A stretch of 35,711 nt of DNA from Bacteroidota bacterium (lineage in GTDB: Bacteria > Bacteroidota > Bacteroidia > Flavobacteriales_F > PHOS-HE28): positions 1 through 35,711 of the forward strand of contig JAFDZE010000012.1 in NCBI GenBank assembly GCA_018267155.1. The letters run 5' to 3'. The notes beneath the pieces are model-generated. The model saw nothing but the letters and a program-made list of their open reading frames with translations, made no database searches and had not been told where the DNA came from. Position numbers and translations under genes: made by a program. Every line of letters starts with the position of its first letter. The stretch's first letter is position 1. Below, one piece after another: positions 1-27,369 of the stretch.

Positions 1-143
1 ATGAACAAGGGCACGAAGGCCATGTAGAACCAACAGCTCGCCACCAGCAGCAGGAGCCAACGCCAGTTCTTGGGCAGCACGAAGTACAACCCCGTTACCA
101 GCGGGAAGAAGAGCAGGCAGAATTCGGCGCTGTTGAAAAGCAT
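1..143 (-). CDS. MBOAT family O-acyltransferase, N-terminal fragment (runs off the window)
   Basis: Only the first 47 codons lie in the window; the gene continues past position 1. The encoded start differs at only two of 47 positions from the N-terminus of the complete MBOAT protein at 25870-27369 (Val for Leu at residues 22 and 34). Both begin with a hydrophobic helix, then a PKNWRW loop and a second helix. The two nucleotide sequences differ mostly at synonymous sites, so these are diverged paralogues and not a recent copy. MBOAT proteins are polytopic inner-membrane enzymes that move acyl groups onto extracytoplasmic glycans. The start follows the GT4 stop at 198 by 54 bp. A near-match to the -7 promoter element (GACATTTG on the minus strand) lies at 162-169. 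Family assignment rests on the similarity to the full-length copy. Confidence 0.85.
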   Translation of the reverse strand, partial: MLFNSAEFCLLFFPLVTGLYFVLPKNWRWLLLLVASCWFYMAFVPLF

Positions 144-197
144 CCGCTGGGGCGAAGGGCGCAAATGTCGCACCCCGATGCTGCTCCGTTGTTCGGC

Positions 198-1448
198 TCA
201 GGTTCGGAGCAGGAACTCCAGCAGGCGGCCGTGCACCACCTCCGCCTCGAAGTGTGCCCGCCAGAACTCCCGGACCTGTTCGCGTGCTCGCTGTTGGTAC
301 CAGGTGCTATTGCGGAAATGGTACAGGTAGCTCTCCAGTTCGTCCACCGAAACCGCGTGGGGCAGCAATACACCGGTCCACGGGGTCACGATCTCGTTCA
401 CCCCGCCCGCATCGGCCGCCAGCAAGGGAATGCCGAAGCTGGCCGCCTCTTGCAGGGCCACGGGTGCGCCGCCTTCGGTACTGCTGGTGTGAACGAACAC
501 ATCCACCGGGTTGGCTTTGTACCACTGGATCACCTCGCTATTGGGCCGACTGCCCTTGAGTTCCACTTCGATGATCGGTGGCAGGTCCCGCACCAGTGCT
601 TCGATCCTGCTCCGTTCCTCCCCATCGCCGAAGTGGGTCCACTTTACGGGTATGGTCAACCGCGCCAGCGCTTCGACCAGCAGGCCCACGCGTTTCAGCG
701 GTATCAGGTTGGCACAGCTCGCGATGCGCAGGATGGGGGACGGTGCCCATGGGGCTGGGCCGTGGTCCACGGTGGCCAGCGGGCTCAGCATGAATTTTTC
801 CCTCGCGTGCGGGTGGCGTTCGCCCATGTACTTCTGTCCCGCCCGTGCGATGTTGAAGATGCGGTCCACTTGTTCCACATGGAAGGCCTGCAGCATCTGC
901 CAGTTCCCTTTCGCCCGGTGGTCGAACATGTCGAAGCCCATCATCCGGCTGACGAAACGCACGCGCGGGTCGCGCAACTTCCACAGGCCGAGTACCGTGG
1001 CCCAGTCGCTGGTCCAATACGAATACAGTACCACTCGCTCTGGATCGTATCGGTCCCCGAAACGGTCGAGCAGGATCCGTTCGCGGCGCATGGCCTGGCG
1101 AAGCCGGCTGTAGAGTTCGCGTCGGCGGGCCTTCCACACCGAGCGGTCCGTTACCGAGGCTTTGCTTGTCCGCACGACATGAAGCCATCGCCGCAGGTCC
1201 ATCAGCACACTGGGCAGGCTGGCCGGCCTGTACGCGTCGGCCCCCAGGATGTTCGTGACCTCCGCGTTGCCGGGGATCGGGCGTGCGGGACCGTCCGGCA
1301 TCAGCGGGAACAGGCGGATGCGCTCGAACCCGCGTGCCAGGATCGGCAGTTCGTTCTCGATGAAGGATTCGCCGTTGCCGAACGGGAATCGGATCGTGAA
1401 CAACCATAGTTCGCGGCCCGTACCAGAGGATGGATCCAGGGTCCCCAT
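198..1448 (-). CDS. GT4-family glycosyltransferase
   Basis: A 416-residue GT-B glycosyltransferase expected to act at the cytoplasmic face of the membrane, transferring a sugar from a nucleotide donor to a growing glycan. The C-terminal half has the GT4 donor-site signature: a glycine-rich block EGGAPVALQEA (about 325-335) followed by FGIPLLAADAGGVNEI (338-353). The N-terminal acceptor domain contains the FGNGESFIENE segment (23-33) seen in relatives of exopolysaccharide transferases. The open frame extends far upstream to 2054, but that part is antisense-like read-through over the next GT2 gene. The ATG at 1448 sits 2 bp after that gene's stop and is the natural start. It is last of the three-gene group that begins at 3453. 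Donor and linkage cannot be read from sequence. Confidence 0.9.
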   Translation of the reverse strand: MGTLDPSSGTGRELWLFTIRFPFGNGESFIENELPILARGFERIRLFPLMPDGPARPIPGNAEVTNILGADAYRPASLPSVLMDLRRWLHVVRTSKASVTDRSVWKARRRELYSRLRQAMRRERILLDRFGDRYDPERVVLYSYWTSDWATVLGLWKLRDPRVRFVSRMMGFDMFDHRAKGNWQMLQAFHVEQVDRIFNIARAGQKYMGERHPHAREKFMLSPLATVDHGPAPWAPSPILRIASCANLIPLKRVGLLVEALARLTIPVKWTHFGDGEERSRIEALVRDLPPIIEVELKGSRPNSEVIQWYKANPVDVFVHTSSTEGGAPVALQEAASFGIPLLAADAGGVNEIVTPWTGVLLPHAVSVDELESYLYHFRNSTWYQQRAREQVREFWRAHFEAEVVHGRLLEFLLRT

Positions 1449-1450
1449 GA

Positions 1451-2458
1451 TCAACCGTTGGTCACCCGCCCGAGCAGTGCGTTCACGCGGTATTTGGCCA
1501 GATACGCCAGTCGGTCGCCGGGCCAGGAACCGCTCAGGCGCATGTGCTCCAACGCGGCGGCGGAACCATACCTGGCCAGGTAGAAGAAGAGTCGTTCCCA
1601 CGAGCGCGTGACCCGCTCGGCGAAGGCCTTTCGTGGGAATAGCCCGCGCTCGGAGTTGATGGCGAGCAACCGGCCGTGCCAGGCACGCAGCCGACGCACA
1701 CTGGAGCGCGTGGGTGGATCCTTGAAGATGTACAAGCCCATCAGGTGCGCGGCGACCTCCGCCTCGTTGAATGGTATTTTGTAGGAACCGAGTGCCGCGC
1801 GCACGAGGAGGTCGTAGTCGGCTACGCGGTCCCGGCCATGCCCGATGTTGTGCTCGCCCCTGCGGTACAGCGCCACCGTGTCCGGTATGTTGGCGAAGCG
1901 GGTGACGCGGGCCATGCGTAACCAGAAGAGCCAGTCCTCGCCGAAGCGCGGCCACGTGGGGTCGTAGCGCAGACCGTGCTCTTCCAGCACACTGCGACGC
2001 AGGATGCTGGCACCCTGCGATACCGGCACACCGAACAGCAGTTGGGCCGCGCAATCATCGGGGTCCAACGGGAAGGCCCAGGTCTTGTTCGTGGCGCCGA
2101 ACAACTCCAGCTGCCCGCCGCTCGCACCGATGTCGGGATGCGTGTCCATGAAGGTCACCTGCCGGGCCACCCGGTCAGCCACAGCGATGTCGTCCGCATC
2201 CAGCCGCACGATGTACTCGCCGATGCACGCGTCGATGCCCGCATTGGCCGCCGCTGCGGGACCGCGATTCCCGGGCAGGGCGATGATGCGCAGGCGCGGG
2301 TCATGGATCGTGTGCAATACCTGAAGACTCGTATCGGTGCTCCCATCATCCACGCACACCACCTCGATGTCACGGAAGGTCCCGCTCAATACGCTCTCCA
2401 CGGCCTCCTTCACGAAGGGCGCCTTGTTGTACACGGGGATCAGCACGCTGGCCTTCAT
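1451..2458 (-). CDS. GT2-family glycosyltransferase
   Basis: A 335-residue GT-A glycosyltransferase. It opens with the GT2 beta strand SVLIPVYN (4-11), then VCVDDGSTD (34-42) for nucleotide binding and RLDADD (85-90), the metal-binding DXD site. An ED pair at 174-175 (GEDWLFWLRMA) is the likely catalytic base region, and SQGASILRRS at 147-156 is the usual acceptor loop. No transmembrane segment is obvious, so it should be a cytoplasmic or peripheral enzyme. The ATG at 2458 overlaps the stop of the upstream GT2 gene by four bases (ATGA), which suggests coupled translation. A longer frame to 3151 exists but overlaps the upstream gene almost entirely, so it was not used. Sugar specificity is unknown. 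Confidence 0.92.
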   Translation of the reverse strand: MKASVLIPVYNKAPFVKEAVESVLSGTFRDIEVVCVDDGSTDTSLQVLHTIHDPRLRIIALPGNRGPAAAANAGIDACIGEYIVRLDADDIAVADRVARQVTFMDTHPDIGASGGQLELFGATNKTWAFPLDPDDCAAQLLFGVPVSQGASILRRSVLEEHGLRYDPTWPRFGEDWLFWLRMARVTRFANIPDTVALYRRGEHNIGHGRDRVADYDLLVRAALGSYKIPFNEAEVAAHLMGLYIFKDPPTRSSVRRLRAWHGRLLAINSERGLFPRKAFAERVTRSWERLFFYLARYGSAAALEHMRLSGSWPGDRLAYLAKYRVNALLGRVTNG

Positions 2459-3453
2459 CGCAACAAGTGCTTGAGCTTGCGGCGGGCCCGGAAGAGGCTC
2501 CACGGGCGGGACAGGCCGGGCAGGATGGCCTGCCAACGTTGTTGCTGTTCCGGGGTGAGGGTATCCATGCCGATGCGCAGGTCTTTGAAGGTGCGCATCA
2601 TGTCGAACTGGTTCTCGCGGTGGATCTCCGCGTTCCACTTGAAGAGGAAATGCAGGGTCATGCGCCGCACGCGGTCGCGCTGTTCCTGACTCACGGGAAT
2701 GCCACGAAGCCCGGCCCGCATCGTGTGTCCTGTGCGCAGCACCTGGACCAGGTCGTTGTTGCCCGTGCGCTCGCACAGCCCGGCCAGCAATGTGGCGATC
2801 TCGTCCAGGAAACCGAGGATCGCGGTGCTGGTCTTGCTGGTCTCGTGAAGCCGGAAGCTGGCGAGTTCCACCGGCTCGAAGCACAGGTGCGCCGTGCCAT
2901 GGCGGAAGAGCAGCTGCCACCACAGCTCCAGGTCCATCACGTAGCGGAGCGCCGGGTCCACGCCACCGATCGCGCGTACCACGTCCATGCGCCAGAATGT
3001 CGCGGGCTGATTGATCACCGGATCGATGTACAGCCTGTCCGCGTCCCGCGTGTCGTTGAGTGCATTGCTCGACCGGGTTCCGCCCGGAACGAGGTGTCGC
3101 AGCGTACCGCCGTAGACGAGCAGTTCCGGATCCGCTTCGAACGCATCGCATGCTCGCTTCAACGCACCGGGCAGGAGCGCATCATCGCTGTTCAACCAAT
3201 TGAAGATGCCACCGGTGGCATGCGACAGTCCCTTGTTGATCGCATCGCTCTGCCCCTTGTCCTTTTCCGAACACCACCAGGCCAGTCGCGCACCGTTCCG
3301 CTCGATGATCCCCTTCGATCCGTCGGTGCTGCCGCCATCCACAACGATGTGCTCCACCGCTTCGCCCTGGTCGTGTACCGAATTGATGCACTCTTCCAGA
3401 TACGCGGCCTGCTGGTAGCTGGGGGTGATCAGAGAGACGCGGGAGCGGGCCAT
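2455..3453 (-). CDS. GT2-family glycosyltransferase
   Basis: A 332-residue GT2 enzyme of the subgroup that carries VVDGGSTDGS (37-46) and the block EKDKGQSDAINKG (63-75), followed by the DXD-like NSDD at 88-91. The acceptor-side block INQPATFWR (147-155) and the acidic MDLELW (173-178) are also typical. This subgroup is common in bacterial capsule and exopolysaccharide loci. The start at 3453 fits the N-terminal beta strand RVSLITPSYQQ. A strong -7 promoter octamer lies 15 bp upstream at 3469-3476, so this gene probably begins a small unit with the two genes after it. Its donor sugar is not known. Confidence 0.92.
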   Translation of the reverse strand: MARSRVSLITPSYQQAAYLEECINSVHDQGEAVEHIVVDGGSTDGSKGIIERNGARLAWWCSEKDKGQSDAINKGLSHATGGIFNWLNSDDALLPGALKRACDAFEADPELLVYGGTLRHLVPGGTRSSNALNDTRDADRLYIDPVINQPATFWRMDVVRAIGGVDPALRYVMDLELWWQLLFRHGTAHLCFEPVELASFRLHETSKTSTAILGFLDEIATLLAGLCERTGNNDLVQVLRTGHTMRAGLRGIPVSQEQRDRVRRMTLHFLFKWNAEIHRENQFDMMRTFKDLRIGMDTLTPEQQQRWQAILPGLSRPWSLFRARRKLKHLLR

Positions 3454-3468
3454 GGCGTGAAGGGGTCG

Positions 3469-3476
3469 CGAAAATA
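3469..3476 (-). promoter_or_regulatory. Bacteroidetes-type -7 promoter element
   Basis: On the minus strand this reads TATTTTCG, matching TAnnTTYG. It lies in the 54-bp gap between the gene ending at 3508 and the start at 3453, leaving about 15 bp to the start codon. No clear -33 TTG is visible at the usual distance. Confidence 0.5.
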
Positions 3477-3507
3477 GACCGTCCCCCGGGTCGGAATGCC
3501 CGTCGGA

Positions 3508-4686
3508 TCAGTGCTGGAGCGAGCGATAGACCTCCAGTACTTCAGTCGCGTAGCGTTCCACGTTGAAGCGTTCTGCTGCATCGCGCATGGCCGCTTCGCC
3601 GAGTGTTCGGGCACGCGACCGGTCGTTGACCAGCGCCAGCATGCGTTCGGCCAGCGCTTCCGCACCGCCGGGATAGAACAGCCCGGTGACTCCTTCCGTG
3701 ATCAGCTCGAGTGTGCCGCCGCTGGCATGACCGATCACCGGAAGACCACTGCTCATGCCCTCCACCGTTACACGACCCATGGCTTCGTTCCGGCTGCACA
3801 TCAAAAGGGCATGGCTGCTCAGCAGGAGCGGCTCCAGATCCTTCACAAAACCGGTGAGCACCACACCATCGCCCACACCGAGTTGTTGGATGAGCGCGTG
3901 CAGGCGATCCGCCTTGCCGTCGCCGGCGAGCACGAGGCGTACGTGCTGCACATGTTGGCGAAGCAGCGCGAAGGCGCGGATCGCCTCTTCCTGTCCTTTG
4001 GAGGCGTGGATCAGCCCCGCGAGCACGAAGGTGAACGGGCCAGTGGCGGTCCATCGGCCCATGGCTTTCGAGGCAAGCCGTTGCTGATCGGCGCTGCGGA
4101 GCACACCGTTGTAGATGAGGTCCGCATGAACGCCACTTCCCGCATATCGCCGGATGTCCTCCTGCACGGCCTTGGAGATCGCGATGAGCCGTGCGGCCTT
4201 GCGAAGTGCCTGGCCATACCGACGCCTGCCCGCATCGATCGTGAGCATGTACTGGTGCTCCGGTAGTTCGCGGATGTGCCACACCAAGGGTGTCGTGCAT
4301 TGCTCCAACAACAGTGCAGTGATCCCCACGGCCGCGCTGTTCACATGGATCAACCCGATCCGTTGCTCCTCGATCGTTCGAAGAACCGCCGGTAGCAAAG
4401 AGCGGTTGCGCATGGCCCGCTTCCGCGCCGCACGCTCGTATCCCAGGTGCTGCATGATCCGGTGATGGATGCGTCCCATGTACCGGCGATCGCTCATCCA
4501 GGGCTCCCATGGGATCACCTGGAACGGGATCTTTTCTGCCTGTAGCCGCTCGGTGATCGGACCTTCACGCGGCAGCAGCACGAAGGGTTCCACCTCTCCA
4601 CGCGAACGCAGTTCGAGCATCAGGTCCAACAGGCTGCGGTTGGCGCCGTACAGCTCCGCGTAGTGGGTGAGGTAGGCGATCCGCAT
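3508..4686 (-). CDS. GT4-family glycosyltransferase
   Basis: A 392-residue GT-B enzyme. The N-terminus MRIAYLTHYAELYGANRSL is a typical GT4 opening with a small-residue loop at 12-16. The linker region has IYNGV (191-195), then the C-terminal domain starts with FVLAGLIHASKGQEEAI (220-236). The catalytic E-x7-E pair is Glu301 and Glu309 in RNEAMGRVTVEGM, followed by GLPVIGHASGGTLELI. It would transfer a sugar with retention of configuration, as is usual for GT4. It follows the next GT4 gene by 9 bp and so belongs to the unit starting at 8293. No membrane segment is visible. Confidence 0.92.
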   Translation of the reverse strand: MRIAYLTHYAELYGANRSLLDLMLELRSRGEVEPFVLLPREGPITERLQAEKIPFQVIPWEPWMSDRRYMGRIHHRIMQHLGYERAARKRAMRNRSLLPAVLRTIEEQRIGLIHVNSAAVGITALLLEQCTTPLVWHIRELPEHQYMLTIDAGRRRYGQALRKAARLIAISKAVQEDIRRYAGSGVHADLIYNGVLRSADQQRLASKAMGRWTATGPFTFVLAGLIHASKGQEEAIRAFALLRQHVQHVRLVLAGDGKADRLHALIQQLGVGDGVVLTGFVKDLEPLLLSSHALLMCSRNEAMGRVTVEGMSSGLPVIGHASGGTLELITEGVTGLFYPGGAEALAERMLALVNDRSRARTLGEAAMRDAAERFNVERYATEVLEVYRSLQH

Positions 4687-13086: not shown

Positions 13087-13815
13087 CTATTCCAGGTCAT
13101 ACGCGTTCATCATACCGGGCAGTTCTTCCTGCGGTACGTACAGCAGGATGTCCAGGATCGAGAGACCGGGCACCCAGGCGTGCCTGCCCTGCTGGTATGG
13201 CGGCAACCGGCTGCGCAGGAAGGAGAGCGTGATACCGCGTTCAGCGAACGCTGCCGCGTTGTAGAGTTCCTTGCCCCCGATCGCGTTCACGTACCGATCG
13301 GCACCTTCCCGCCCACAGATGTCCAGGATGCGCGCCTGTCCGGACAGGTGCTGGTTCGCATGAACGGAGGATGAGGGAACGAGTTCCGTGCGCGAGCCGA
13401 TGTACGCCATCACCTCACGGATCCCGTTCACCAGCAGATCGACCAGTCGTTCGTGCGGGCCATGCAGCACACGTTCCAACATGTCCTGCACGGGCCGAAG
13501 GTTCGGGGCGCGGCTGTACGCCTGGGACACGGTGCGCAGGAATTTCCCTCTCCAGGCGTCGTACCGCCGAGGATCGGTCCCAATAGCATTGATGGCCGTG
13601 AACGATCCCGCATCACTCAGCGGCAGGGTGAACATGTGCGGCGCGCCGTTCACCAGGATGCGATTGCGGTTCACCCAGCCCTGCTTCATGAAGCTGACAT
13701 CATCGTACACCACGAAGCGGTCCACGGCGGCGATCAGTTGAAAATACCCGAGATAGGGGAAGAGGTAGGGCTGCATCACCCCCAGGGTAAGGGTCCGGTC
13801 CGCTGCCAATTCCAT
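13087..13815 (-). CDS. WbqC family protein
   Basis: A 242-residue cytoplasmic protein with the WbqC signature at its start: MQPYLFPYLGYFQL (14-27) followed by VYDDVSFMKQGWVNRNRI (36-53). Later blocks RILDICGREGADRYVNAIGG and the C-terminal ILDILL are also family-like. WbqC proteins occur in O-antigen and capsule loci and have been proposed to help modify amino sugars, but the reaction is not well established. Here the gene sits directly between a full DegT aminotransferase (18-bp gap) and a short DegT-like protein (no gap), an arrangement that supports a joint role. The start at 13815 gives the expected N-terminus close to the first conserved strand. Confidence 0.9.
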   Translation of the reverse strand: MELAADRTLTLGVMQPYLFPYLGYFQLIAAVDRFVVYDDVSFMKQGWVNRNRILVNGAPHMFTLPLSDAGSFTAINAIGTDPRRYDAWRGKFLRTVSQAYSRAPNLRPVQDMLERVLHGPHERLVDLLVNGIREVMAYIGSRTELVPSSSVHANQHLSGQARILDICGREGADRYVNAIGGKELYNAAAFAERGITLSFLRSRLPPYQQGRHAWVPGLSILDILLYVPQEELPGMMNAYDLE

Positions 13816-13833
13816 ACGCCCGGCCGGAATGGA

Positions 13834-14973
13834 TCAACGATACTCGTCCAGCGCGGCCAGCAGCGCTCGCGTTATGCGGTCCGTGTCCTGCGGGGTCAGG
13901 TCGGGGTACAGCGGCAGGCACAACGTGCGCAACGCGGCATCACGGCTGTGCGGGCAGGTTCGGCCCACCACGTACGGCAGCTCGTCCAACGACGGATAAA
14001 AATACCTTCGGCAATGGATTCCTTGCGATGCGAGCGCGGCCAGTACGTGCTCCCGCTCGGCCTCGTCCCGGAACTGCACGGGGTGATACGCGTAGTTGTA
14101 CGAGACCCCCGCTGGCAACCCCGGCTTGACCACCACATCCGCCAATGCCTGATCGTACGCATCGCAGATCCGCGCACGTTGCTCGATGATGCGCTCCACG
14201 TGGGGCAGCACGGCCATGCCCATCGCAGCGTGCAACTCGCTCATTTTGGCGTTCATGCCCAAGGAGATGTGGTCGTCGTTCCGGTGGCCGAAACTCCGCA
14301 ACAGGCGCAGGCGCTCATCGGCGGCCGCATCGTGCAGCACCACCGCGCCACCTTCCACCGTGTGGAACAATTTGGTGGCATGGAAGCTCAGGGTGCTGGC
14401 ATCACCCCATTGCAGGATGCTCTGCCCCTTGTAGGTCACATCGAACGCATGGGCCGCGTCATAGATGACCTTCAGGCCGTGTCTCTTCGCTATGGCATCG
14501 ATCGCCTCCACATCGCAGGGTATGCCGTACACATGCGTGGCGAGGATGGCGGTGACGCCGGGTGTGATGGCCGCCTCGATGGCCGCCGGATCGATGCAAC
14601 AGGTGCCCGGGTCGATGTCCGCGAACACCGGTTCGCAGCCCTCCCAGAGGATGGCACTGGTGGTGGCCACGTAGCTGAACGGTGTGGTGATCACTTTGCC
14701 CTGGACGCCCAAGGCGCGAATGGCCAGTTGCAGCGCGAGGGTACCGTTGGCCATCAGGCGCAGGTAGGGTACATCCGAACGGACGCGCAAGGTCTCTTCC
14801 AGTTCCTGGTGGATGGGGCCCTGATTGGTGAGGTGGTGCGAGGCATAGGCCTTTCGCAGCCAATGCAGATACTCCTCTTGCGGGGGTAGGAAGGTGCGCG
14901 TTACATGGATCGGGGGCCGGGATCCGGTGGGCTCCATCGCGGGCGTCATCGTGGCGGGGGCGGGGATCTCCAT
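13834..14973 (-). CDS. DegT/DnrJ/EryC1/StrS sugar aminotransferase
   Basis: A 379-residue PLP-dependent aminotransferase of the sugar-modifying family. Key features are ANGTLALQLA (75-84) for phosphate binding, TTPFSYVATTSAI (96-108), Asp172 in YDAAHAF, and the Schiff-base Lys201 in SFHATKLFHTVEGGA. The C-terminal YNYAYHPVQF and CLPLYPDL blocks complete the family pattern and the length is normal. It should transfer an amino group, usually from glutamate, to a keto-nucleotide sugar in the cytoplasm. The start at 14973 follows a strong promoter octamer by 16 bp. ATG codons at residues 9 and 13 are possible alternatives, since the first conserved segment begins near residue 20. Confidence 0.93.
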   Translation of the reverse strand: MEIPAPATMTPAMEPTGSRPPIHVTRTFLPPQEEYLHWLRKAYASHHLTNQGPIHQELEETLRVRSDVPYLRLMANGTLALQLAIRALGVQGKVITTPFSYVATTSAILWEGCEPVFADIDPGTCCIDPAAIEAAITPGVTAILATHVYGIPCDVEAIDAIAKRHGLKVIYDAAHAFDVTYKGQSILQWGDASTLSFHATKLFHTVEGGAVVLHDAAADERLRLLRSFGHRNDDHISLGMNAKMSELHAAMGMAVLPHVERIIEQRARICDAYDQALADVVVKPGLPAGVSYNYAYHPVQFRDEAEREHVLAALASQGIHCRRYFYPSLDELPYVVGRTCPHSRDAALRTLCLPLYPDLTPQDTDRITRALLAALDEYR

Positions 14974-16935: not shown

Positions 16936-18219
16936 TCAGTTCGTGCCCCACTGCAACCGGGGCCGCACGACGCCCTGGAGGCGGCCGTACCAGGAGCCGG
17001 TCCGCTCCCCTTCATGCACCTCGAATCCGATCGTCTCTTCCACTTGGAACATCATCTTCCCGTTCCGGAAGAAATTCACCACGATGCGGTGGTTTCCCGT
17101 ATTCAGGAGTTGGGCAGGGATGGCGCACCACACGCTGCCCGCTCCCGAGGCCACCCGCCCCGTGTGCGGACCGAATTGCCGCCAGCCGCTGGTGAAGACC
17201 ATTATGTCCTCCGCGTTGTACAGCTGGATCGTCACGTTCATGTCGTCGTCCGTGATCCCGCTATTGTGGTAATGAATACGGATCTTGAACGATGTGTTCA
17301 CGTCGAGCAGTTCTTCCCCATCGGTGGTCGCGTCCGGTTCGATGCTCACGCCGGTGAGCCGGACCAGGTCGTTGCCGGGTGCGTCCTGTCCCACCACCCA
17401 ACGGCGCTCGTTGCTGTGGCTGGCGTACGTTCCCAGGTAGGCCCGCACCACATCGCTTGTGGGGCCGTCCATGCGCACACGGCCGTCGTGCAGCCAGATC
17501 ACGCGCGAGCACAACGAAGCGATGGCCGTCATGTTGTGGCTGACGAATAGGATGGTGCGGCCATGATGGGCGACATCCTTCATCTTGCCCAGGCACTTGC
17601 GTTGGAATTCGGCGTCGCCCACGGCAAGCACCTCATCGATCACCAGGATCTCGGGTTCCAGGTGGGCGGCCACGGAGAAGCCGAGCCGTACCTTCATGCC
17701 GCTGCTGTACCGCTTCACCGGGCTGTCGATGTGGTGGCGTACCCCGCTGAAGGCGATGATCTCGTCGAGCTTGCGGTCGATCTCGGCCTTGCGCATGCCG
17801 AGGATGGTGCCGTTGAGGAAGATGTTCTCGCGGCCCGTGAGTTCGGGGTTGAAGCCGGTGCCCACCTCGAGCAGGCTGCTCATACGGCCACGCATCCGGA
17901 TCTCCCCTTCGGTGGGCAGGGTGATGCGGCTGAGCAGTTTGAGCAAGGTGCTTTTTCCCGCACCGTTCCGACCGATGATGCCGAGCGTCTCGCCACGGTG
18001 TACTTCGAAACCCACATCACGCAGTGCCCAGAAATCGCGACCGGCCACCTGGCTGTCCACCTCTTTGCCGATGGGTATGCGCGGATCGGGTTTGCCACGC
18101 AGCCGTGCCAGCCAGGCGCCCAGGTCCTCGCTCAGGGTGGCACCTCCCGCTTCGCCCAGTCGGTAGCGCTTGGATACACCGGCACAGTGGATCACCACGG
18201 GCTGCTCCTGCACGCTCAT
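16936..18219 (-). CDS. wzt: Polysaccharide ABC transporter ATPase with C-terminal glycan-binding domain
   Basis: A 427-residue ATPase of the O-antigen/teichoic-acid export type. Walker A is GRNGAGKST (83-91), the signature YSSGMKVRLGF (171-181), Walker B ILVIDEVLAVGD (191-202) and the H-loop His228 in VSHN. Residues after about 270 form an extra beta-rich domain (FKIRIHYHNSGITDDDMNV, VWCAIPAQLLNTGNHRIVV) like the Wzt C-terminal domain that recognises the finished glycan chain end. It pairs with the permease gene upstream, which it overlaps by four bases (18216-18219). Export of a lipid-linked polymer across the inner membrane is the expected role. A carbohydrate-binding tail usually goes with chain-terminating modifications such as methylation, which fits the adjacent methyltransferase. 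Confidence 0.93.
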   Translation of the reverse strand: MSVQEQPVVIHCAGVSKRYRLGEAGGATLSEDLGAWLARLRGKPDPRIPIGKEVDSQVAGRDFWALRDVGFEVHRGETLGIIGRNGAGKSTLLKLLSRITLPTEGEIRMRGRMSSLLEVGTGFNPELTGRENIFLNGTILGMRKAEIDRKLDEIIAFSGVRHHIDSPVKRYSSGMKVRLGFSVAAHLEPEILVIDEVLAVGDAEFQRKCLGKMKDVAHHGRTILFVSHNMTAIASLCSRVIWLHDGRVRMDGPTSDVVRAYLGTYASHSNERRWVVGQDAPGNDLVRLTGVSIEPDATTDGEELLDVNTSFKIRIHYHNSGITDDDMNVTIQLYNAEDIMVFTSGWRQFGPHTGRVASGAGSVWCAIPAQLLNTGNHRIVVNFFRNGKMMFQVEETIGFEVHEGERTGSWYGRLQGVVRPRLQWGTN

Positions 18220-19082
18220 ACCACGTCGGCGAATGATCGTTCAACCCGCTGGAACAGGGCGAGCCCGACCAGGACAAGTCCCACCGCGAAGGCCGCGGAA
18301 TACCCCAGGCCGCCCCAGTCCACCACACCTCCGAAGAGCAGGGTGCGGAAGGCGACGATCACCCCGGTCATCGGGTTCAACTGGAGAACGGCCAGCATGG
18401 TGGCGTTCTTGGCCACGATCTCCATGGGGAAGATCACCGGGCTGGCGAACATGAGCAACTGGACGCCAAAAGCGACCAGAAAACCGAGATCACGGTATTT
18501 GGTGGTCATTGCCGAGATCAGGATGCCGGCTCCCAGGCCCAGCAAGGACATCACAAGGATGACGACGGGGAGCAGGACCAGCAGGGGCGATGGCGACCAC
18601 TGGAAGCCCATGAACAGGGCGTAGATGGCGATGATCAGGAAGAGGAGCCCGAGTTGGACCAGGAAGGAGAAGAGCGTGGACAGCGTGGTGCTCACCGGCA
18701 TGATGAGCCGGGGGAAGTACACCTTGGTGAGCACCGCTGAGTTGGTCACGAAGGTGCGCGAGGTCTTGTTCACCACCCCACTGAAGCAGGTCCAGGGTAC
18801 GATGCCGCTGAGATAGAACAGCATGGCGGGTATGCCCGCCGGGGCCAATCGTGCCACCAGACCGAACATCACGGTGTAGGTGATGGTGGTGAGCAACGGC
18901 TGGGCCACCAACCAGGCCGGTCCCAGGATGGTCTGTTTGTACTGCGCCGTGAGGTCGCGCCGCACCAGCAGCATGAGCAGGTCGCGGTAGTGCCAGAATT
19001 CCTTCAGGTCGGGTCGCCACCAGGCCTGCTGCGGCTTGATCGTGACATCCCACGCACTGGTTCCAGGTCCGTTCATGTCCAT
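18216..19082 (-). CDS. wzm: Polysaccharide ABC transporter permease (ABC-2 type)
   Basis: A 288-residue inner-membrane protein. A cytoplasmic N-terminus with KEFWHYRDLLMLLVRRDLTAQYKQT (27-51 region) precedes about six membrane helices, including TILGPAWLVAQPLLTTITYTVMFGLV and GAGILISAMTTKYRDLGFLVAF. The motif RDLTAQYKQTILGPAW is characteristic of Wzm/TagG permeases and contacts the ATPase. It forms a pair with the Wzt-like protein. The start at 19082 lies 29 bp after the wzc-like gene; an ATG at 19076 two codons in is an alternative. The glycan substrate is undefined. Confidence 0.93.
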   Translation of the reverse strand: MDMNGPGTSAWDVTIKPQQAWWRPDLKEFWHYRDLLMLLVRRDLTAQYKQTILGPAWLVAQPLLTTITYTVMFGLVARLAPAGIPAMLFYLSGIVPWTCFSGVVNKTSRTFVTNSAVLTKVYFPRLIMPVSTTLSTLFSFLVQLGLLFLIIAIYALFMGFQWSPSPLLVLLPVVILVMSLLGLGAGILISAMTTKYRDLGFLVAFGVQLLMFASPVIFPMEIVAKNATMLAVLQLNPMTGVIVAFRTLLFGGVVDWGGLGYSAAFAVGLVLVGLALFQRVERSFADVV

Positions 19083-19111: not shown

Positions 19112-21550
19112 TCAGGTGTTCTGGTTCTTCGCCTTGCCACCGCCCTCCGCGTCGCCCTTCTTCTTGCGGCGGCCTTGTCCGTAGCCGTAGCCGTACCCGT
19201 ACCCGCTACCGTACCCGTATGCGTAGCGGTAGCCGTATCCGTAGTTGGTGTTGTAGTAATAGCGGCTCTTCTTCATCCGGACACCGTTCAGGATGAAGCC
19301 GAAGTTCTTGGTGGTGCTGGCGTGGGCCGTTTCCACCGCGTTGCGGATGTGGTCCTTGTTGGCGAATCGGGTGTTGATCACGAACAAGGTGGCGTCCACA
19401 TGGCGCATCATCAGCAGCGCATCGGTGATCAGCCCCACCGGCGGGGTGTCCACGATCACGTAATCGAATCGTGTACGGCCCCATTCAAAGAGCTCGGCCA
19501 AGTGCTTGCTGAGGACCAGTTCCGAGGCGTTCGGCGGGGTGGGGCCGCTCAGGATCACGTTGAAGTTCTCGATCTGTGTGGGCTGCACGCACTCGCCCAC
19601 GGGGATCTTGCCCACCAGGATGTTCGTAAGGCCTTGCTGGGCGGTCATGCCCATGTTCGCCCCCACCTTGGGCTTGTGCAGGTCCAACTCCAGCAGCAGC
19701 ACTTTTTTGCCCGCTTTGGCCAGGATCGCGCTCAAGTTCACGCTGCAGAAGGTCTTGCCCTCGTTTGGACGGTAGCTCGTCACCATCACCACCTTGCCCT
19801 GCGAGCTGGCCGGCAGGTACTCCAGGTTGGTCCGCACCGTGCGGAAGCTCTCGGTGATCGCGCTCTTCGGGTCGCTGTCCACCACCACGTAGTTCTCCTC
19901 GGCCTTCTCGCTGGCGATGATCTCCCCGAATACCGGCAGACTGGTGGCCGCGCGCAATTGGTCGGCGTTCTCCACCCGGTCGTAGAACAGTACCCGGATG
20001 AAGACCACCACCATGCTCAGCAAAAGCCCGCCCACCAGGAAAGTGTACAGGATCTTCATCCGGTCCGGCCGAACCACGCCCAGCGATCGCGCGCGCTCGA
20101 TCACCTTGGTGGTGGGAATGATGCCCGCCTTGGCGATCATGGTGTTGGCCCGTTTTTCCAGCAGGAACTCGTAGAGCTTTTCGTTCACGTTCAACTTGCG
20201 CCGGATGTTGAGCAGGCCCCGTTGGGTGGAGGGCACTCCTTTGATCAAACGGGTGTAATCATCGATCTGGCCCTGCACCTCATCGATCTTTTCGTTCAGG
20301 GCTTTGCGTGTATTGGTCAGGTACACCATCAGGTTGGCCCGGTTGAGGGCCAGCGTGGTATCTCCCCGGCTGATCGAGGGGTTGCCCATTGTGGCATCGA
20401 AGAGCTTGTTGTTCTTCGCCATCTGCATGTTGTACAGCTCGCTCAGGGTCTGCTTCAGGAAGATGTCGTCCTCCAGGATGTACAGGCTCGGTGGCAGCAA
20501 CTTCTCTTCGCCAAGGTCCAGCACGTACTTCTCCAGCGAGTTCACGCTCTCGATCATCATCTCGTACTGCCGTTTCTTGGCGTCGTAACTCACGAGCTGA
20601 TCGAAATACTGGTCCTCCTGTTTGTTCAGATCCAGGATGTTCTTGCTGTTCACGAACTGTTCCAGATCGTCCTCGTACATCGAGATGATGGAACTCACCT
20701 CGTCGATCTGCTTGTCGATGTAGCTGAGCGTGCGTTCGTTGATGTCGAACTCGCTCTGCAACGTGTAGTTGATGTACTCCCGGCTCAACGTGTCCAGCAA
20801 CATCCGGGCACGCGCGGGGATCTCGTCCTCCACACGCACTTCCAGGATGGAGGTGTACTCCAGGTTCTCCACCTGCATGCCGTAACTGTACTTGCCAACC
20901 AACCAGCCCCGGCTGTGTACCACGAACTGGTAATCGCCGCTGGTGTAGCGTTCCAGATTCGATGCCGTTACCTCCTGCACCTTGTCCACGCGCAATGTGA
21001 AGTCATCGTCCGCCAGGTCGGCCACATCGGTGTTGAACGGGAAGGTCTTTTTGATGATGCCGCCGCCCCGGTCGTAGCTCAACTCGAAATGTTCCGGGTC
21101 GACGATGTGCAGGTCGAAGGGCTTTTCGAAAAGCTTGGGGTTCAACAACTGCATCTTCACCGTGAAGGGCAGCGTGCCGTATTCCTCTTTGCGCTTGAAG
21201 CGACCGATGATGTAGTATGATACGTCGAAGTCCAGCTTGTCCAGCGTGCGGTTGAGCATGTCGTAGCTCGTTAGCACCCGCTTCTGGTTCACGATGTCAC
21301 CGTAGGCCGCGATGTACCCGATGTTCTGGTACACCTGGGTCTGGTAGTTGTACGTTTCGCGGTCCTTCAGCAGGATCTGCGTGCTGGCGCCGTACACCTC
21401 GGGTATCTTGTAGCTGTACAGGTAGGAGAGGACGGCCGAGAGGATGAGGGCGACAACAACGAAGTACCAGTTCTTCGAGAAGATCCGAAGGAAGGAGCGC
21501 AGGTCGTTTACGTCGATGATGCCCGCCTTGGGGCCTGCCGCTGCTGCCAT
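19112..21550 (-). CDS. Wzc-like polysaccharide co-polymerase and BY-type tyrosine kinase
   Basis: An 812-residue inner-membrane protein. Residues 28-46 and 502-521 are membrane helices that flank a long periplasmic Wzz/GumC-type region containing coiled-coil stretches (about 270-340, 370-470). The cytoplasmic part is a bacterial tyrosine kinase: Walker A SYRPNEGKTF (592-601), Walker A-prime LLLELDLHKP (618-627) and Walker B DYVIVDTPPVG (696-706). The tail at 764-790 has 13 tyrosines in 27 residues, mostly alternating with glycine, then a Lys/Arg patch; this is the expected autophosphorylation cluster. Such proteins control polymer length and secretion. The ATG at 21550 was chosen; the frame is open to 21829 but a promoter octamer lies at 21608-21615. 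It leads the long minus-strand unit. Confidence 0.93.
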   Translation of the reverse strand: MAAAAGPKAGIIDVNDLRSFLRIFSKNWYFVVVALILSAVLSYLYSYKIPEVYGASTQILLKDRETYNYQTQVYQNIGYIAAYGDIVNQKRVLTSYDMLNRTLDKLDFDVSYYIIGRFKRKEEYGTLPFTVKMQLLNPKLFEKPFDLHIVDPEHFELSYDRGGGIIKKTFPFNTDVADLADDDFTLRVDKVQEVTASNLERYTSGDYQFVVHSRGWLVGKYSYGMQVENLEYTSILEVRVEDEIPARARMLLDTLSREYINYTLQSEFDINERTLSYIDKQIDEVSSIISMYEDDLEQFVNSKNILDLNKQEDQYFDQLVSYDAKKRQYEMMIESVNSLEKYVLDLGEEKLLPPSLYILEDDIFLKQTLSELYNMQMAKNNKLFDATMGNPSISRGDTTLALNRANLMVYLTNTRKALNEKIDEVQGQIDDYTRLIKGVPSTQRGLLNIRRKLNVNEKLYEFLLEKRANTMIAKAGIIPTTKVIERARSLGVVRPDRMKILYTFLVGGLLLSMVVVFIRVLFYDRVENADQLRAATSLPVFGEIIASEKAEENYVVVDSDPKSAITESFRTVRTNLEYLPASSQGKVVMVTSYRPNEGKTFCSVNLSAILAKAGKKVLLLELDLHKPKVGANMGMTAQQGLTNILVGKIPVGECVQPTQIENFNVILSGPTPPNASELVLSKHLAELFEWGRTRFDYVIVDTPPVGLITDALLMMRHVDATLFVINTRFANKDHIRNAVETAHASTTKNFGFILNGVRMKKSRYYYNTNYGYGYRYAYGYGSGYGYGYGYGQGRRKKKGDAEGGGKAKNQNT
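19181..19246 (-). repeat. Hexanucleotide-like tandem repeat coding for the Tyr-Gly tail
   Basis: Eleven six-base units of the GTANCC type run in phase with the wzc-like gene and encode alternating Tyr and Gly (with Arg, Ala and Ser variants). The variation among units argues against very recent slippage, although length change by slipped pairing is possible. Confidence 0.7.
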
Positions 21551-21844: not shown

Positions 21845-21852
21845 TACATTTG
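21845..21852 (+). promoter_or_regulatory. -7 promoter element of the exosortase cassette
   Basis: TACATTTG is an exact TAnnTTTG match, 25 bp before the PID-CTERM start at 21878. The -33 region is not recognisable. Confidence 0.55.
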
Positions 21853-21877: not shown

Positions 21878-22102
21878 ATGAAGTCAGTCCTACGCTTGGT
21901 GGTACTCGCAGGCTCGCTGGCCCTCCCCTTGATCGGTGGGCTTTGGGCACAGGGTGGCCCGCCCGTGGGTGGCCCTCCTCCCTGCTGGCCCCCTCCCTGC
22001 ATCCCCGTTGACGGGGGGATCTCTCTGCTCATTGGAGCTGGTGTGCTCCTCGGCGCCAAGCGCGCCCTTGATCTGCGCCAGGCGTCCAAGCGCACGGCCT
22101 GA
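21878..22102 (+). CDS. PID-CTERM-type short exosortase substrate
   Basis: A 74-residue secreted protein. Residues 1-24 are a signal peptide (basic start, hydrophobic core, ending near LWA). Then comes a short Gly/Pro/Cys stretch with the paired PPPCWPPPC motif, followed by PVDGG, a hydrophobic helix (ISLLIGAGVLLGA) and a basic tail (KRALDLRQASKR). That tripartite C-terminus is the plan of an exosortase sorting signal, and PVDGG closely resembles the PID-CTERM motif of Bacteroidota. After both cleavages only about 20 residues would be left, so this is an almost minimal substrate. Its stop overlaps the exosortase start by one base (TGATG), which ties the two together. The function of the mature peptide is unknown; the two cysteines may form crosslinks or receive a modification. 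Confidence 0.8.
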   Translation: MKSVLRLVVLAGSLALPLIGGLWAQGGPPVGGPPPCWPPPCIPVDGGISLLIGAGVLLGAKRALDLRQASKRTA

Positions 22103-22668
22103 TGGCCGCTGGTGCCCAGTCTTCCGCCCGGTTCTTCCGGATCCCGGTCGGCTCCGATCCGCTTCTCCGCTTCCTCCTCATCGCTGCGGCCCTCTTTGTG
22201 GGGTGGCAATTGCTGTACGCCTTGGTCATCCACCCGTGGGGCGTGCCCGATCGCTGGCTCATCGGGCAACTCACCGATCATGCGGGCGGTTTGTTGCGTG
22301 TACTGGGCTATGAACTCTTGCCTGAACCGGCCGGGGACACGAATCGCTATATCGGCGTGCAGGGTGGCAGCTTCCTCTGGATCGGCGACCGCTGCGACGG
22401 ACTGTCCGTCATGGTGGTTTTCGCCCTGTTCATCCTGGCCTTTCCCGGGCCATGGAAGCATAAGTCCTGGTTCATCCTTCTGGGCACGGCCGTCATCCAC
22501 GCCATCAACGTGCTGCGCGTGGTCGCCCTTTGTATCGTGGTCACGATCGATTACGAACTGCTCAACTTCCAGCACGATTACACCTTCCAAGTGGTGGTGT
22601 ACGGTGTGGTGCTGTTGCTCTGGTACTTATGGGTGAAGCGCATCGCGCCGATCCCCGGATCCACCTGA
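22102..22668 (+). CDS. xrtX: Exosortase (XrtX-like)
   Basis: A 188-residue polytopic inner-membrane transpeptidase-like enzyme. The three active-site residues of the exosortase/archaeosortase family are visible: Cys98 in GDRCDGL, Arg139 in HAINVLRVVAL, and His158 in NFQHDYTFQ. Several membrane helices (about 22-44, 99-115, 122-150, 162-178) surround them. Exosortases cut a short C-terminal signal from secreted proteins, probably handing the protein to another acceptor. The neighbours, a PID-CTERM-like substrate before it and a small membrane protein after it, match the XrtX subtype, which is why that symbol is used; the subtype call is from context and memory of the family, not a profile search. 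Confidence 0.85.
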   Translation: MAAGAQSSARFFRIPVGSDPLLRFLLIAAALFVGWQLLYALVIHPWGVPDRWLIGQLTDHAGGLLRVLGYELLPEPAGDTNRYIGVQGGSFLWIGDRCDGLSVMVVFALFILAFPGPWKHKSWFILLGTAVIHAINVLRVVALCIVVTIDYELLNFQHDYTFQVVVYGVVLLLWYLWVKRIAPIPGST

Positions 22669-22671
22669 GTC

Positions 22672-23136
22672 ATGGGGCGGCCGTTGCGCGCTGTGCTCAT
22701 CCTGGCCATCGGCATCGCCCTGGGCGCAGTGCACGACCTGCTCTTCATCAACCTCAACTACCAGATCGATCACGTGCGGCGCAGCACGCCATGGTCGTTC
22801 GCGCATTCGGAATTCCAGAGACTGGTCCGCGGTTGGGACCTGGTCATGCTCACACGTACCAAATGGGTCCTGGCCGCGCTCTTCGTCCTGGCGATGTGGT
22901 GCCTGTGCCTCCTGCTGTTGCGCAACGCGGGGGTGTTCCGCCGTCTTGCCCGCCCGGTCACCATGGGTTTTGCCGCCATCGCGCTGCTCGCCCTCCTGCT
23001 CCACCTTGCTGCTCGCTGGCTGCCCGTTGAGGAAGCATCGGTGAACCTGCTCCACGCCATTCAATACCCCGTGCTGCTGCTGATCCTGCAGGCTGCGCTC
23101 CAGGTCTTTCCGGACCTCGGCAAGAAAAGCGGTTGA
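22672..23136 (+). CDS. XrtX-associated membrane protein
   Basis: A 154-residue protein with about four hydrophobic helices (5-22, 64-83, 95-115, 130-146) and a hydrophilic loop rich in Arg (NYQIDHVRRSTPWSFAHSEFQRLVRGWD, roughly 30-57). No catalytic motif was recognised. It starts three bases after the exosortase stop. Small membrane proteins in this position are known beside XrtX-type exosortases, so it probably works in the same step, for example as a chaperone for the enzyme or its acceptor; this is inference from place and topology. Confidence 0.75.
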   Translation: MGRPLRAVLILAIGIALGAVHDLLFINLNYQIDHVRRSTPWSFAHSEFQRLVRGWDLVMLTRTKWVLAALFVLAMWCLCLLLLRNAGVFRRLARPVTMGFAAIALLALLLHLAARWLPVEEASVNLLHAIQYPVLLLILQAALQVFPDLGKKSG

Positions 23137-24774: not shown

Positions 24775-25866
24775 GTGAACCAGCGAGGACCCATACCGAA
24801 TGCCACCACGCCCAGGAGTTGGCCGAGACGCCCGTGGAGCGCTGTTCTCGTCTCTCTCCTGGTGTGTGCGGCCACGCTGTGCATCGTTCACAGTACCCTT
24901 CCGCCTTTCTGGGGTGTGCCCAACCTGGCCATCAAATGGGATGCGCTGCACCGGGATCCGATCCCTCAACGGGCGCTCATCGGTTCGAGCCGCATCTATC
25001 GACAGGCGATCCCTTCCATCATCGATAGCGTGATCGGACAGGGCCGGACGTTCAATGCCGGTTACGCCGCCACTTTCCCTCCGGCCACGTACGAATTCTT
25101 GGAACAACTGCTCCGTGAAGAACGCCAGCTTCCTGAGGAGATCCTGGTCGAACTCTCCAACTACATGCTCTTCGAGGAGGCGAACCTTGAAGATCATCGC
25201 TATTGGTACTATCTGGGACCACGGGAAGGTTGGGGCCTGGTGCGCCACGCCTTGTTCCTCCCGAACCAGCCTCGTACGGAACGACTGGGTTTCGCCGCGC
25301 GCGCCGTGCGTGCCACCACGTGCTCCTTGCTGGGCCTCGGTCTGGCCGATCACCTGCTGGCGGCCACTGCCGACACCGATACGCTGCTCGCGCTGGGACC
25401 CGCTGGCGATGGGGGGCTCACACTGGAGACCTTGCTGCGGTACAGGCCCGATGATGAGGGCCAACTGGCCCGCCGCGCAACATTCCGGGCGGACACGCTC
25501 GCAGCGCAGCGCCGCGCGGTCGGTCTGCGCCACCTCTACGAACGCCCTTCGACCGGAGGTGTGAGCCTCGTCCATCTGAGCCGCTTGACCGCATTGCTCG
25601 ACATGGCTCACAGTCGGGGCGTCCGATTGCGATTCGTGCTGCCTCCGCTCTGGATAGACCGGGGAGAGGACCTGCTTGCCCTCGTGCATGCGCTGCCGGA
25701 CGGTGCCGTCATCGATCTGTGCCATCCGGACTCGTTCCCTCAATTCTACCGCCCCGAGAACATGTTCGACGCTGGGCATCTCAACGACCGCGGAGCAAGG
25801 CTCTTCAGCATGGAACTGGCCCGCGCCCTGCACGCACCCGGCCACAACCCGGAATTCGCGCGATAG
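24775..25866 (+). CDS. Membrane-anchored SGNH-like protein, partner of MBOAT
   Basis: A 363-residue protein with one N-terminal membrane helix (about 22-40), probably leaving the rest outside the cytoplasm. Traces of the SGNH hydrolase fold are LIGSSRIY (68-75) with the nucleophile serine, NAGYAA (94-99) as the next block, and FDAGHLNDRGA (331-341) with Asp332 and His335 as the DxxH catalytic pair. It is three bases from the MBOAT gene, as in alginate, DltD-like and other O-acetylation systems where the SGNH protein takes the acyl group from the MBOAT protein and places it on a glycan. The start is a GTG at 24775 because no in-frame ATG lies near the membrane helix. Confidence 0.75.
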   Translation: MNQRGPIPNATTPRSWPRRPWSAVLVSLLVCAATLCIVHSTLPPFWGVPNLAIKWDALHRDPIPQRALIGSSRIYRQAIPSIIDSVIGQGRTFNAGYAATFPPATYEFLEQLLREERQLPEEILVELSNYMLFEEANLEDHRYWYYLGPREGWGLVRHALFLPNQPRTERLGFAARAVRATTCSLLGLGLADHLLAATADTDTLLALGPAGDGGLTLETLLRYRPDDEGQLARRATFRADTLAAQRRAVGLRHLYERPSTGGVSLVHLSRLTALLDMAHSRGVRLRFVLPPLWIDRGEDLLALVHALPDGAVIDLCHPDSFPQFYRPENMFDAGHLNDRGARLFSMELARALHAPGHNPEFAR

Positions 25867-25869
25867 ACC

Positions 25870-27369
25870 ATGCTCTTCAACAGCGCTGAGTTCTGCCTGC
25901 TCTTCTTCCCCCTGGTCACCGGGCTGTACTTCCTGCTGCCCAAGAACTGGCGCTGGCTCCTGTTGCTGCTGGCCAGCTGCTGGTTCTATATGGCCTTCGT
26001 CCCGCTCTTCATCCTGATCCTCGCCTTCACCATCGGGGTGGACTTCGTGGCCGGCATCGCCATAGCGCGCAGCGAGGGGCCGCGGCGAAAGGCATACCTC
26101 GTTGCCAGTATCATCGCCAATGTGGGGGTGCTGGCGGTGTTCAAGTACTGGGACTTCCTCAACGGCAACCTCACGGCCCTGTTCGCCGGGATGGGACTGG
26201 AATACCATGTGCCCAAGTTGCACGAGTGGACCTTCTTCGGCTTTCTCCCGGCCGGCATGGTGCTGCCCATCGGTCTGTCGTTCCACACCTTTCAGAGCTT
26301 GAGCTACACCATCGAGGTCTACCGCAAACACCAACAGGCCGAGCGCCGCTTCGGGGTGTTCGCACTGTACGTGATGTTCTACCCGCAACTGGTGGCCGGC
26401 CCCATCGAGCGACCGGGCAATCTGCTCAACCAGTTGAACGCGACGGATGGGCACGGTATCCGGTCCGACTTCGACCACCACCGGGTGGTCCAGGGCCTCA
26501 AGCAGATGCTCTGGGGCTTCTTCAAGAAACTCGTGATCGCGGATCGCTGTGCCGCGCTCGTGGACATCGGATACACCCATCCGGCGGCACAGGATGGGGG
26601 TTCGCTGCTGCTGGCCACGCTCTTCTTCGCGTTCCAGATCTATTGCGACTTCAGCGGCTATACCGACATCGCGCTTGGCGCCGCCCGGGTGATGGGCTTC
26701 AACCTGATGGTGAACTTCCGCACTCCGTACCGGAGTGCGAGTATCAGCGAGTTCTGGGGCCGCTGGCACATCAGCCTCAGCTCCTGGTTCCGCGACTACC
26801 TCTACATCCCGCTCGGGGGCAACCGCGTGGCCAAATGGCGCTGGTACACCAACCTGTTCATCGTATTCCTGGTGAGCGGCCTGTGGCACGGCGCCAACTG
26901 GACCTACGTGACCTGGGGCGGGCTGCACGGCTCCTACCTGGTGCTCGCACTGATGTTCGCTCCACTCTGGAAGCGCACCTCAGGAGCCTCCGGACGGGCC
27001 GAACAGCACGGCTTCGGGCGTGCCTTGAACGTGCTCGCGACCTTCCTGCTCGTGGCTTTCGCTTGGATCTTCTTCCGCGCATCTCATGTGGCAGATGCCT
27101 TCACCGTGATCCACCGCATCTTCGATCCTTCCACATGGACGGATGGATCTTGGGGCATCGTGCATGCCGATCCGCCGGGTTCCTTCTTCCTCACCGTGTT
27201 CGTGGTCCTCGTGTTCGTGATCATCGACCCGCTGTGCGATGCCCTGGTGAAAGGAGAGCGACACCTCACCGCTTTCAGTGCTGAAGTGGCTTGGATCAGC
27301 GGTCTCCTGCTGGCCTGCCTGTTCATCGGGCGCCATGGGGCCACCACCTTCATCTACTTCCAATTCTGA
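25870..27369 (+). CDS. MBOAT family O-acyltransferase
   Basis: A 499-residue polytopic inner-membrane acyltransferase. The conserved core is FWGRWHISLSSWFRDYLYIP (295-314) with His300, and LWHGANWTYVTWG (338-350) with the catalytic His340. The earlier block FYPQLVAGPIERPGNLL (170-186) is typical of the AlgI/PatA group. It brings an acyl group from a cytoplasmic donor across the membrane to a glycan, here presumably with the SGNH-like protein encoded just before. A paralogue with an almost identical N-terminus begins at 143 on the other strand. Which glycan it modifies is not known. Confidence 0.95.
   Translation: MLFNSAEFCLLFFPLVTGLYFLLPKNWRWLLLLLASCWFYMAFVPLFILILAFTIGVDFVAGIAIARSEGPRRKAYLVASIIANVGVLAVFKYWDFLNGNLTALFAGMGLEYHVPKLHEWTFFGFLPAGMVLPIGLSFHTFQSLSYTIEVYRKHQQAERRFGVFALYVMFYPQLVAGPIERPGNLLNQLNATDGHGIRSDFDHHRVVQGLKQMLWGFFKKLVIADRCAALVDIGYTHPAAQDGGSLLLATLFFAFQIYCDFSGYTDIALGAARVMGFNLMVNFRTPYRSASISEFWGRWHISLSSWFRDYLYIPLGGNRVAKWRWYTNLFIVFLVSGLWHGANWTYVTWGGLHGSYLVLALMFAPLWKRTSGASGRAEQHGFGRALNVLATFLLVAFAWIFFRASHVADAFTVIHRIFDPSTWTDGSWGIVHADPPGSFFLTVFVVLVFVIIDPLCDALVKGERHLTAFSAEVAWISGLLLACLFIGRHGATTFIYFQF

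Follow-up and report, generated by a model that had tools for sequence, protein, structure and literature searches.

The 35,711-nucleotide stretch of DNA analysed here (the window; contig 33 of a 3.33-Mb genome that is 82% complete) is as a whole a long polysaccharide locus, encoding glycosyltransferases, methyltransferases, WbqC, a DegT aminotransferase, an ABC exporter, Wzc, an MBOAT protein and an epimerase. Within it, on the forward strand, lies a cassette of three genes, which an earlier note on this DNA had read as an exosortase flanked by its substrate and a membrane partner: a mini-protein of 74 residues (21878–22102), the exosortase XrtX of 188 residues (22102–22668) and a membrane protein of 154 residues (22672–23136). 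The three open reading frames were recovered as described, including the TGATG overlap that joins the mini-gene and the XrtX gene. Elsewhere in the window, a WbqC-like protein adjoins the DegT-family aminotransferase (13087–14973), which points to a polymer containing an acylated amino sugar, and a 363-residue protein that has no family match is followed by the MBOAT O-acyltransferase (24775–27369), an arrangement resembling a sugar O-acylation pair.

The mini-protein consists of an N-terminal signal peptide (residues 1–24), a Pro/Gly/Cys core and a PID-CTERM tail composed of a transmembrane segment and a basic end. An NCBIfam profile search matched the PID-CTERM model NF046080 to residues 43–63 of the 74, at the C-terminus, with a score of 26.9 bits against a cut-off of 26; it is the one match above the cut-off in its own genome. 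By eye, the signal peptide, the motif, the hydrophobic helix and the basic tail were recognised in the mini-protein and in 38 orthologues, and the signal peptide is predicted to end after Ala24. Removal of both ends leaves Gln25–Pro43, about 19 residues or 23 with VDGG, close to the 20 or so estimated earlier. The predicted mature core, QGGPPVGGPPPCWPPPCIP-VDGG (residues 25–47; 21950–22018, forward strand), supported by the conserved sequence PCWPPPCIP[IV]DGG, contains a CX4C loop between Cys36 and Cys41. In Pfam, no entry matched the mini-protein or the membrane partner, and the enzyme alone was matched, below the cut-off.

The enzyme matches the XrtX model NF046081 over residues 19–182 with 173.6 bits (cut-off 170), so that both profile assignments anticipated in the earlier note hold. 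Its Cys98, Arg139 and His158, which the note had numbered correctly, are invariant in all 37 complete sequences among the 39 homologues. The XrtF model TIGR04128 scored 87.1 bits, below its cut-off of 90, which places the enzyme outside XrtF. An AlphaFold model of XrtX built from six sequences was rejected as too poor (pLDDT 51).

The third gene product is matched over its full length by NF046082, the model of the XrtX-associated membrane protein, with 22.3 bits (E = 8.7e-5) against a cut-off of 75. It occupies the same place in 38 of 38 loci of the genus; from position and weak homology, it is a putative diverged relative of the XrtX-associated membrane protein. The AlphaFold model of this protein is all-helical and of fair quality (pLDDT 83.7), and a fold search of the PDB with it gave no match. 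In the membrane helical bundle, the homologues keep a set of polar residues with little or no variation (N27, N29, S46, K64, H128, Q131 and Y132).

Divergent from the cassette, and separated from it by a shared intergenic region, is a gene on the reverse strand for a Wzc-type polysaccharide co-polymerase and tyrosine autokinase (19112–21550), which scores 170 bits with TIGR01007, over the cut-off, and contains Wzz, GNVR and AAA_31 domains. Its C-terminal tail (19112–19300) is a Tyr/Gly-rich repeat, as expected of an autophosphorylating tyrosine kinase. Also on the reverse strand are the ABC-2 type permease (18216–19082; PF01061) and the ABC ATPase (16936–18219; PF00005) of polysaccharide export, the latter of 427 residues with a long C-terminal extension. 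On the cassette side, 33 nt upstream of the mini-gene ATG, we found TACATTTG (21845–21852, forward strand), which fits TAnnTTTG, a sequence that we take to be the Bacteroidota-type −7 promoter consensus. In 34 of 38 homologous loci, such a box precedes the ATG of the mini-gene by 22–46 nt, so that the mini-gene appears to be the first gene of a unit with its own promoter.

When 45 genomes from the order were searched with a back-translated pattern for PCWPPPC, 39 of them, all belonging to one genus, gave a match, among them 29 of the 30 with at least 90% completeness and at most 5% contamination, compared to none for the reversed control. Although the pattern search had itself picked out this motif of exactly seven residues, the PID-CTERM model, which does not require CWPPPC, recovered the same 39 genomes without that selection, with essentially one gene each. 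Ten second matches to the motif in the genus lie in other open reading frames lacking PID-CTERM and were discarded as chance. All PID-CTERM genes of the genus (38 orthologues fetched) carry PCWPPPCIP[IV]DGG, and the 39-nt core exists in 38 DNA versions over 39 genes with a single amino-acid change, Ile/Val, in agreement with the core conservation that the earlier note had called for. Within the genus, the mean pairwise identity is 99% for the core, 64% for XrtX, 60% for the tail, 46% for the membrane partner and 26% for the signal peptide; by this measure, no part of the cassette is under tighter constraint than the peptide predicted to be left over.

Such constancy bears on two alternatives. 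As the 74-residue protein has no folded cargo, it might be a degenerate exosortase substrate that has lost its body, with the enzyme serving something else. This we find barely credible, given that the core is conserved above everything else in the cassette, that one copy is kept per genome, and that the mini-gene and XrtX are absent together from the sole genome over 90% complete that lacks the mini-gene. The proposed dedicated pairing of substrate and enzyme is upheld by the same single copy and joint absence; in the incomplete genome G306, XrtX is cut by a contig end. Alternatively, the size, the two cysteines and the own promoter are typical of small peptides and might suit a secreted bioactive peptide, either a bacteriocin or a signal, matured by XrtX. 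However, a toxin would be expected to vary and no diversification is seen in the genus, on which ground the bacteriocin reading was rejected; moreover, the cassette has no immunity gene or peptide exporter and is constantly tied to envelope genes, which makes a bioactive peptide very improbable.

Comparison of the loci showed that the order mini-gene, XrtX, membrane partner is preserved in all 38 fetched from the genus, and 28 of 39 mini-genes end in a stop-start overlap of the TGATG or TAATG type. The divergent Wzc gene lies upstream in 36 of the 38, the other two contigs ending at the mini-gene, and the ABC-2 permease and ABC ATPase are present in 29 and 25, respectively, with contig ends explaining some absences; these counts follow phylogeny and several genomes are incomplete. 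The tie to polysaccharide machinery is thereby supported. By contrast to the peptide, the downstream genes are variable among the 38 loci: GT2 in 2, an acetyltransferase in 5, MBOAT in 5, a protein of the type encoded at 24775 in 5 and an epimerase in 10. In sum, the cassette pairs a dedicated XrtX with just one PID-CTERM substrate, which has no cargo, and adds a membrane partner, with Wzc on the opposite side.

The earlier note had gone further and inferred that the peptide is a carrier, anchor or primer joined to the glycan; on this view it would be bound covalently, as carrier or primer, to the glycan of the locus and be exported within that polymer. The fixed tie to Wzc and the ABC polysaccharide exporter is consistent with that, as is the link of exosortases in general to exopolysaccharide (PMC1569441). 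Nevertheless, the peptide is invariant while the glycosyltransferases, acyltransferases and epimerase vary from genome to genome. This speaks against a primer dedicated to the locus glycan, and on this point the earlier note is not supported. In addition, the cores have no conserved Ser, Thr or Asn as an acceptor (Thr in 5, Ser in 2 and Asn in 1 of 38), so that any link would run via the new C-terminus or a Cys, and ordinary O- or N-linked attachment of a glycan to the mature core is unlikely. Furthermore, similar mini-proteins adjoin type IX cargo genes in other families instead of glycan genes, as described below, and a glycan need not be the direct partner. A carrier or primer in this sense is unlikely, and the earlier interpretation as a whole is partly supported.

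Beyond the genus, the XrtX cut-off was passed by 37 of 296 genomes drawn from the phylum, and 45 of 48 XrtX-bearing genomes have PID-CTERM genes, one to nine each and nearly all tiny; in a second order, a PID-CTERM gene is present in 78 of 199 genomes, almost always as one copy. The tiny proteins elsewhere consist of a signal peptide, about 8–20 Pro-rich residues (for example QPGLPSAPSQ) and APIDGG. The pool of 105 distinct mini-proteins that do not belong to the genus includes 63 in which two cysteines enclose a short loop, such as WPPP, FPPP, WEPP, GGPFGPA or DGPFGPV, and 59 of these 63 adjoin XrtX. The loops are mostly 4 or 7 residues long, ranging up to 10, and contain an aromatic residue in 61 and Pro in 62 of the 63 cases. 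Retention of the Cys pair while the loop length changes suits an intramolecular disulfide. Two loci (L240 and L260) have, by eye, extra two-Cys mini-PID genes away from XrtX, behind a DegT-type aminotransferase and an initiating sugar transferase-like gene.

Two kinds of gene adjoin these 105 mini-genes. A divergent Wzc gene adjoins 50, and 42 others come immediately after a gene for type IX secretion cargo, as identified by a home-made HMM for the C-terminal domain; in the slot directly upstream, Wzc and type IX cargo never stand both at once. The split between Cys and non-Cys proteins, and between Wzc and type IX contexts, largely follows lineage, hence the neighbourhoods are not independent events. 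A first tally in which two-Cys and type IX-linked mini-proteins never overlapped was dropped, as a better cargo HMM revealed eight overlaps. In the complete genome G191, which has 95 cargo genes, all six PID-CTERM genes are located 140–520 nt behind a same-strand cargo domain (TIGR04183), at positions 830741, 832955, 1553427, 2752105, 2755413 and 3426300 of contig C1. There and in family f24 (L177–L183 and L188), tiny Cys-less PID-CTERM genes directly follow cargo genes and are unlinked to XrtX, the cargo and mini-genes sometimes forming tandem pairs. By eye, the type IX-linked PID-CTERM genes of f24 are generally not close to Poly_export or Bac_transf genes. In at least eight f24 genomes (G026, G065, G069, G139, G143, G159, G175 and G250), XrtX itself is 0.5–1 kb from a divergent Poly_export (Wza-like) gene of about 800 codons.

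Combined loci also occur. L252 (positions 1–4666) and L241 contain a divergent Wzc, a putative cargo, a two-Cys mini-gene and XrtX together, in L252 with the membrane partner as well. The cargo genes of L253 and L260 were confirmed by TIGR04183, and that of L252, flagged by the home-made HMM, had no match to it. It is possible that the combined locus of L252 and L241 represents the ancestral arrangement, and a general partnership of the type IX and PID-CTERM sorting systems is likewise possible. Across the genus loci, no type IX cargo gene was found within 8 kb of the mini-gene; such genes are plentiful in the genus genomes, with 76 matches in the own genome of the window. The Wzc and type IX contexts may therefore reflect two functions.

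The constancy of Wzc as a neighbour suits another alternative, in which the processed peptide stays unattached and, in the periplasm or once secreted, works as a regulator or structural cofactor; it might, for instance, bind to a surface protein or to Wzc through the periplasmic domain of the latter. No other neighbour is as constant across families as Wzc, and near-absolute constancy of sequence is easier to reconcile with a ligand that binds a partner than with an anchor in a passive role. However, exosortase-type substrates are thought to be left anchored with a new C-terminal moiety (PMC11980579), and the type IX-linked copies have no Wzc neighbour. We regard an unattached regulator as rather unlikely.

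Altogether, we tentatively favour a reading, held somewhat short of probable, in which XrtX makes a constant looped peptide that tags or anchors surface material exported under Wzc. From what is known of the families, the mini-protein would be exported by Sec and signal peptidase would take off residues 1–24; XrtX, by means of Cys98, would cut near P-V-D-G-G, and the membrane tail would be discarded. The product would be about 20 residues long, rigid and rich in Pro, its loop closed by a Cys36–Cys41 disulfide with an aromatic residue inside. By analogy to what is thought of other exosortases and archaeosortases, XrtX would serve as a transpeptidase handing the new C-terminus to a membrane carrier or a glycan carrier. 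The associated membrane protein perhaps presents this carrier; it may be more than a scaffold, acting as an enzyme or as the subunit that does the presenting. A lipid could also fill the carrier role, in which case glycan would play no part. As the peptide is constant beside variable sugar genes, machinery that is itself constant (Wzc) would read it as an adaptor or anchor; it would be the tag of surface material whose export Wzc organises, and not the primer of one glycan. In many Bacteroidota, the cassette adjoins genes of polysaccharide export or of secreted surface proteins, which makes a small adaptor at the surface the probable role of the peptide.

In families where the mini-gene follows type IX cargo, the tag would be a docking or anchoring partner of that cargo, and the linkage there suggests, more weakly, that it connects surface proteins with a surface polymer. 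An extended version, in which the XrtX peptide is moved by its C-terminus to a surface polysaccharide or lipid carrier and is the docking tag for type IX-secreted proteins, seems doubtful. If true, two surface systems would be joined by a peptide adaptor that is genetically encoded.

The cassette type is already known from NCBIfam, whose XrtX/PID-CTERM models (NF046081, NF046080 and NF046082) describe the same three-gene set, and both the enzyme and the substrate exceed their cut-offs. Compared to that set, the locus differs in a membrane partner below the cut-off, an invariant two-Cys loop and a fixed Wzc partner. We found no paper on the XrtX/PID-CTERM family in the open-access literature, although work elsewhere may exist; within the literature searched, neither the two-Cys, cargo-less, Wzc-linked variant nor the two gene partners were found described. 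A related enzyme with a neighbouring associated protein is XrtF (Fjoh_1448) of Flavobacterium johnsoniae, together with the exosortase F system-associated protein (Fjoh_1449). Deletion of xrtF or of its neighbour abolished the biofilm-type “zorbs” and reduced biofilm and surface colonisation (PMC10936215). The enzyme here falls below the XrtF cut-off, and it has a predicted substrate, compared to none in that study.

The PEP-CTERM/EpsH system (XrtA) shares the C-terminal signal of motif, helix and basic end as well as the linkage to polysaccharide loci. In that system one enzyme serves many full-size proteins, whereas here one enzyme has one cargo-less substrate. The compound attached in PEP-CTERM systems has been described as unidentified (PMC7468200), and for no exosortase system was a substrate acceptor found identified in the open-access literature searched. 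Exosortases, archaeosortases and rhombosortases appear to leave their substrates membrane-anchored, which suggests transpeptidation (PMC11980579). Myxosortase and MYXO-CTERM resemble the present pair in a tripartite C-terminal tag with an invariant Cys at the processing site (PMC11980579). However, myxosortase is a CPBP-family enzyme with dozens of substrates, whose Cys is proposed to be lipidated. The enzyme here belongs to the exosortases instead, and in other families PID-CTERM proteins with a type IX link lack Cys apart from the eight two-Cys overlaps given by the better HMM. PorU/A-LPS anchoring of the type IX system transpeptidates surface proteins onto a glycolipid in Bacteroidota, and mini-PID genes elsewhere follow type IX cargo; enzyme and signal nevertheless differ, and in the genus the cassette has no adjoining type IX cargo.

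Set beside these systems, the cassette is a minimal case, in which one enzyme and one substrate reduced to a peptide of about 20 residues would allow the product and its attachment to be read in a single mass spectrum. Moreover, two genetic partners of XrtX substrates recur, type IX secretion cargo and the Wzc-type polysaccharide machinery. With them, what was an orphan family name becomes a link of surface proteins to surface glycans that can be tested.
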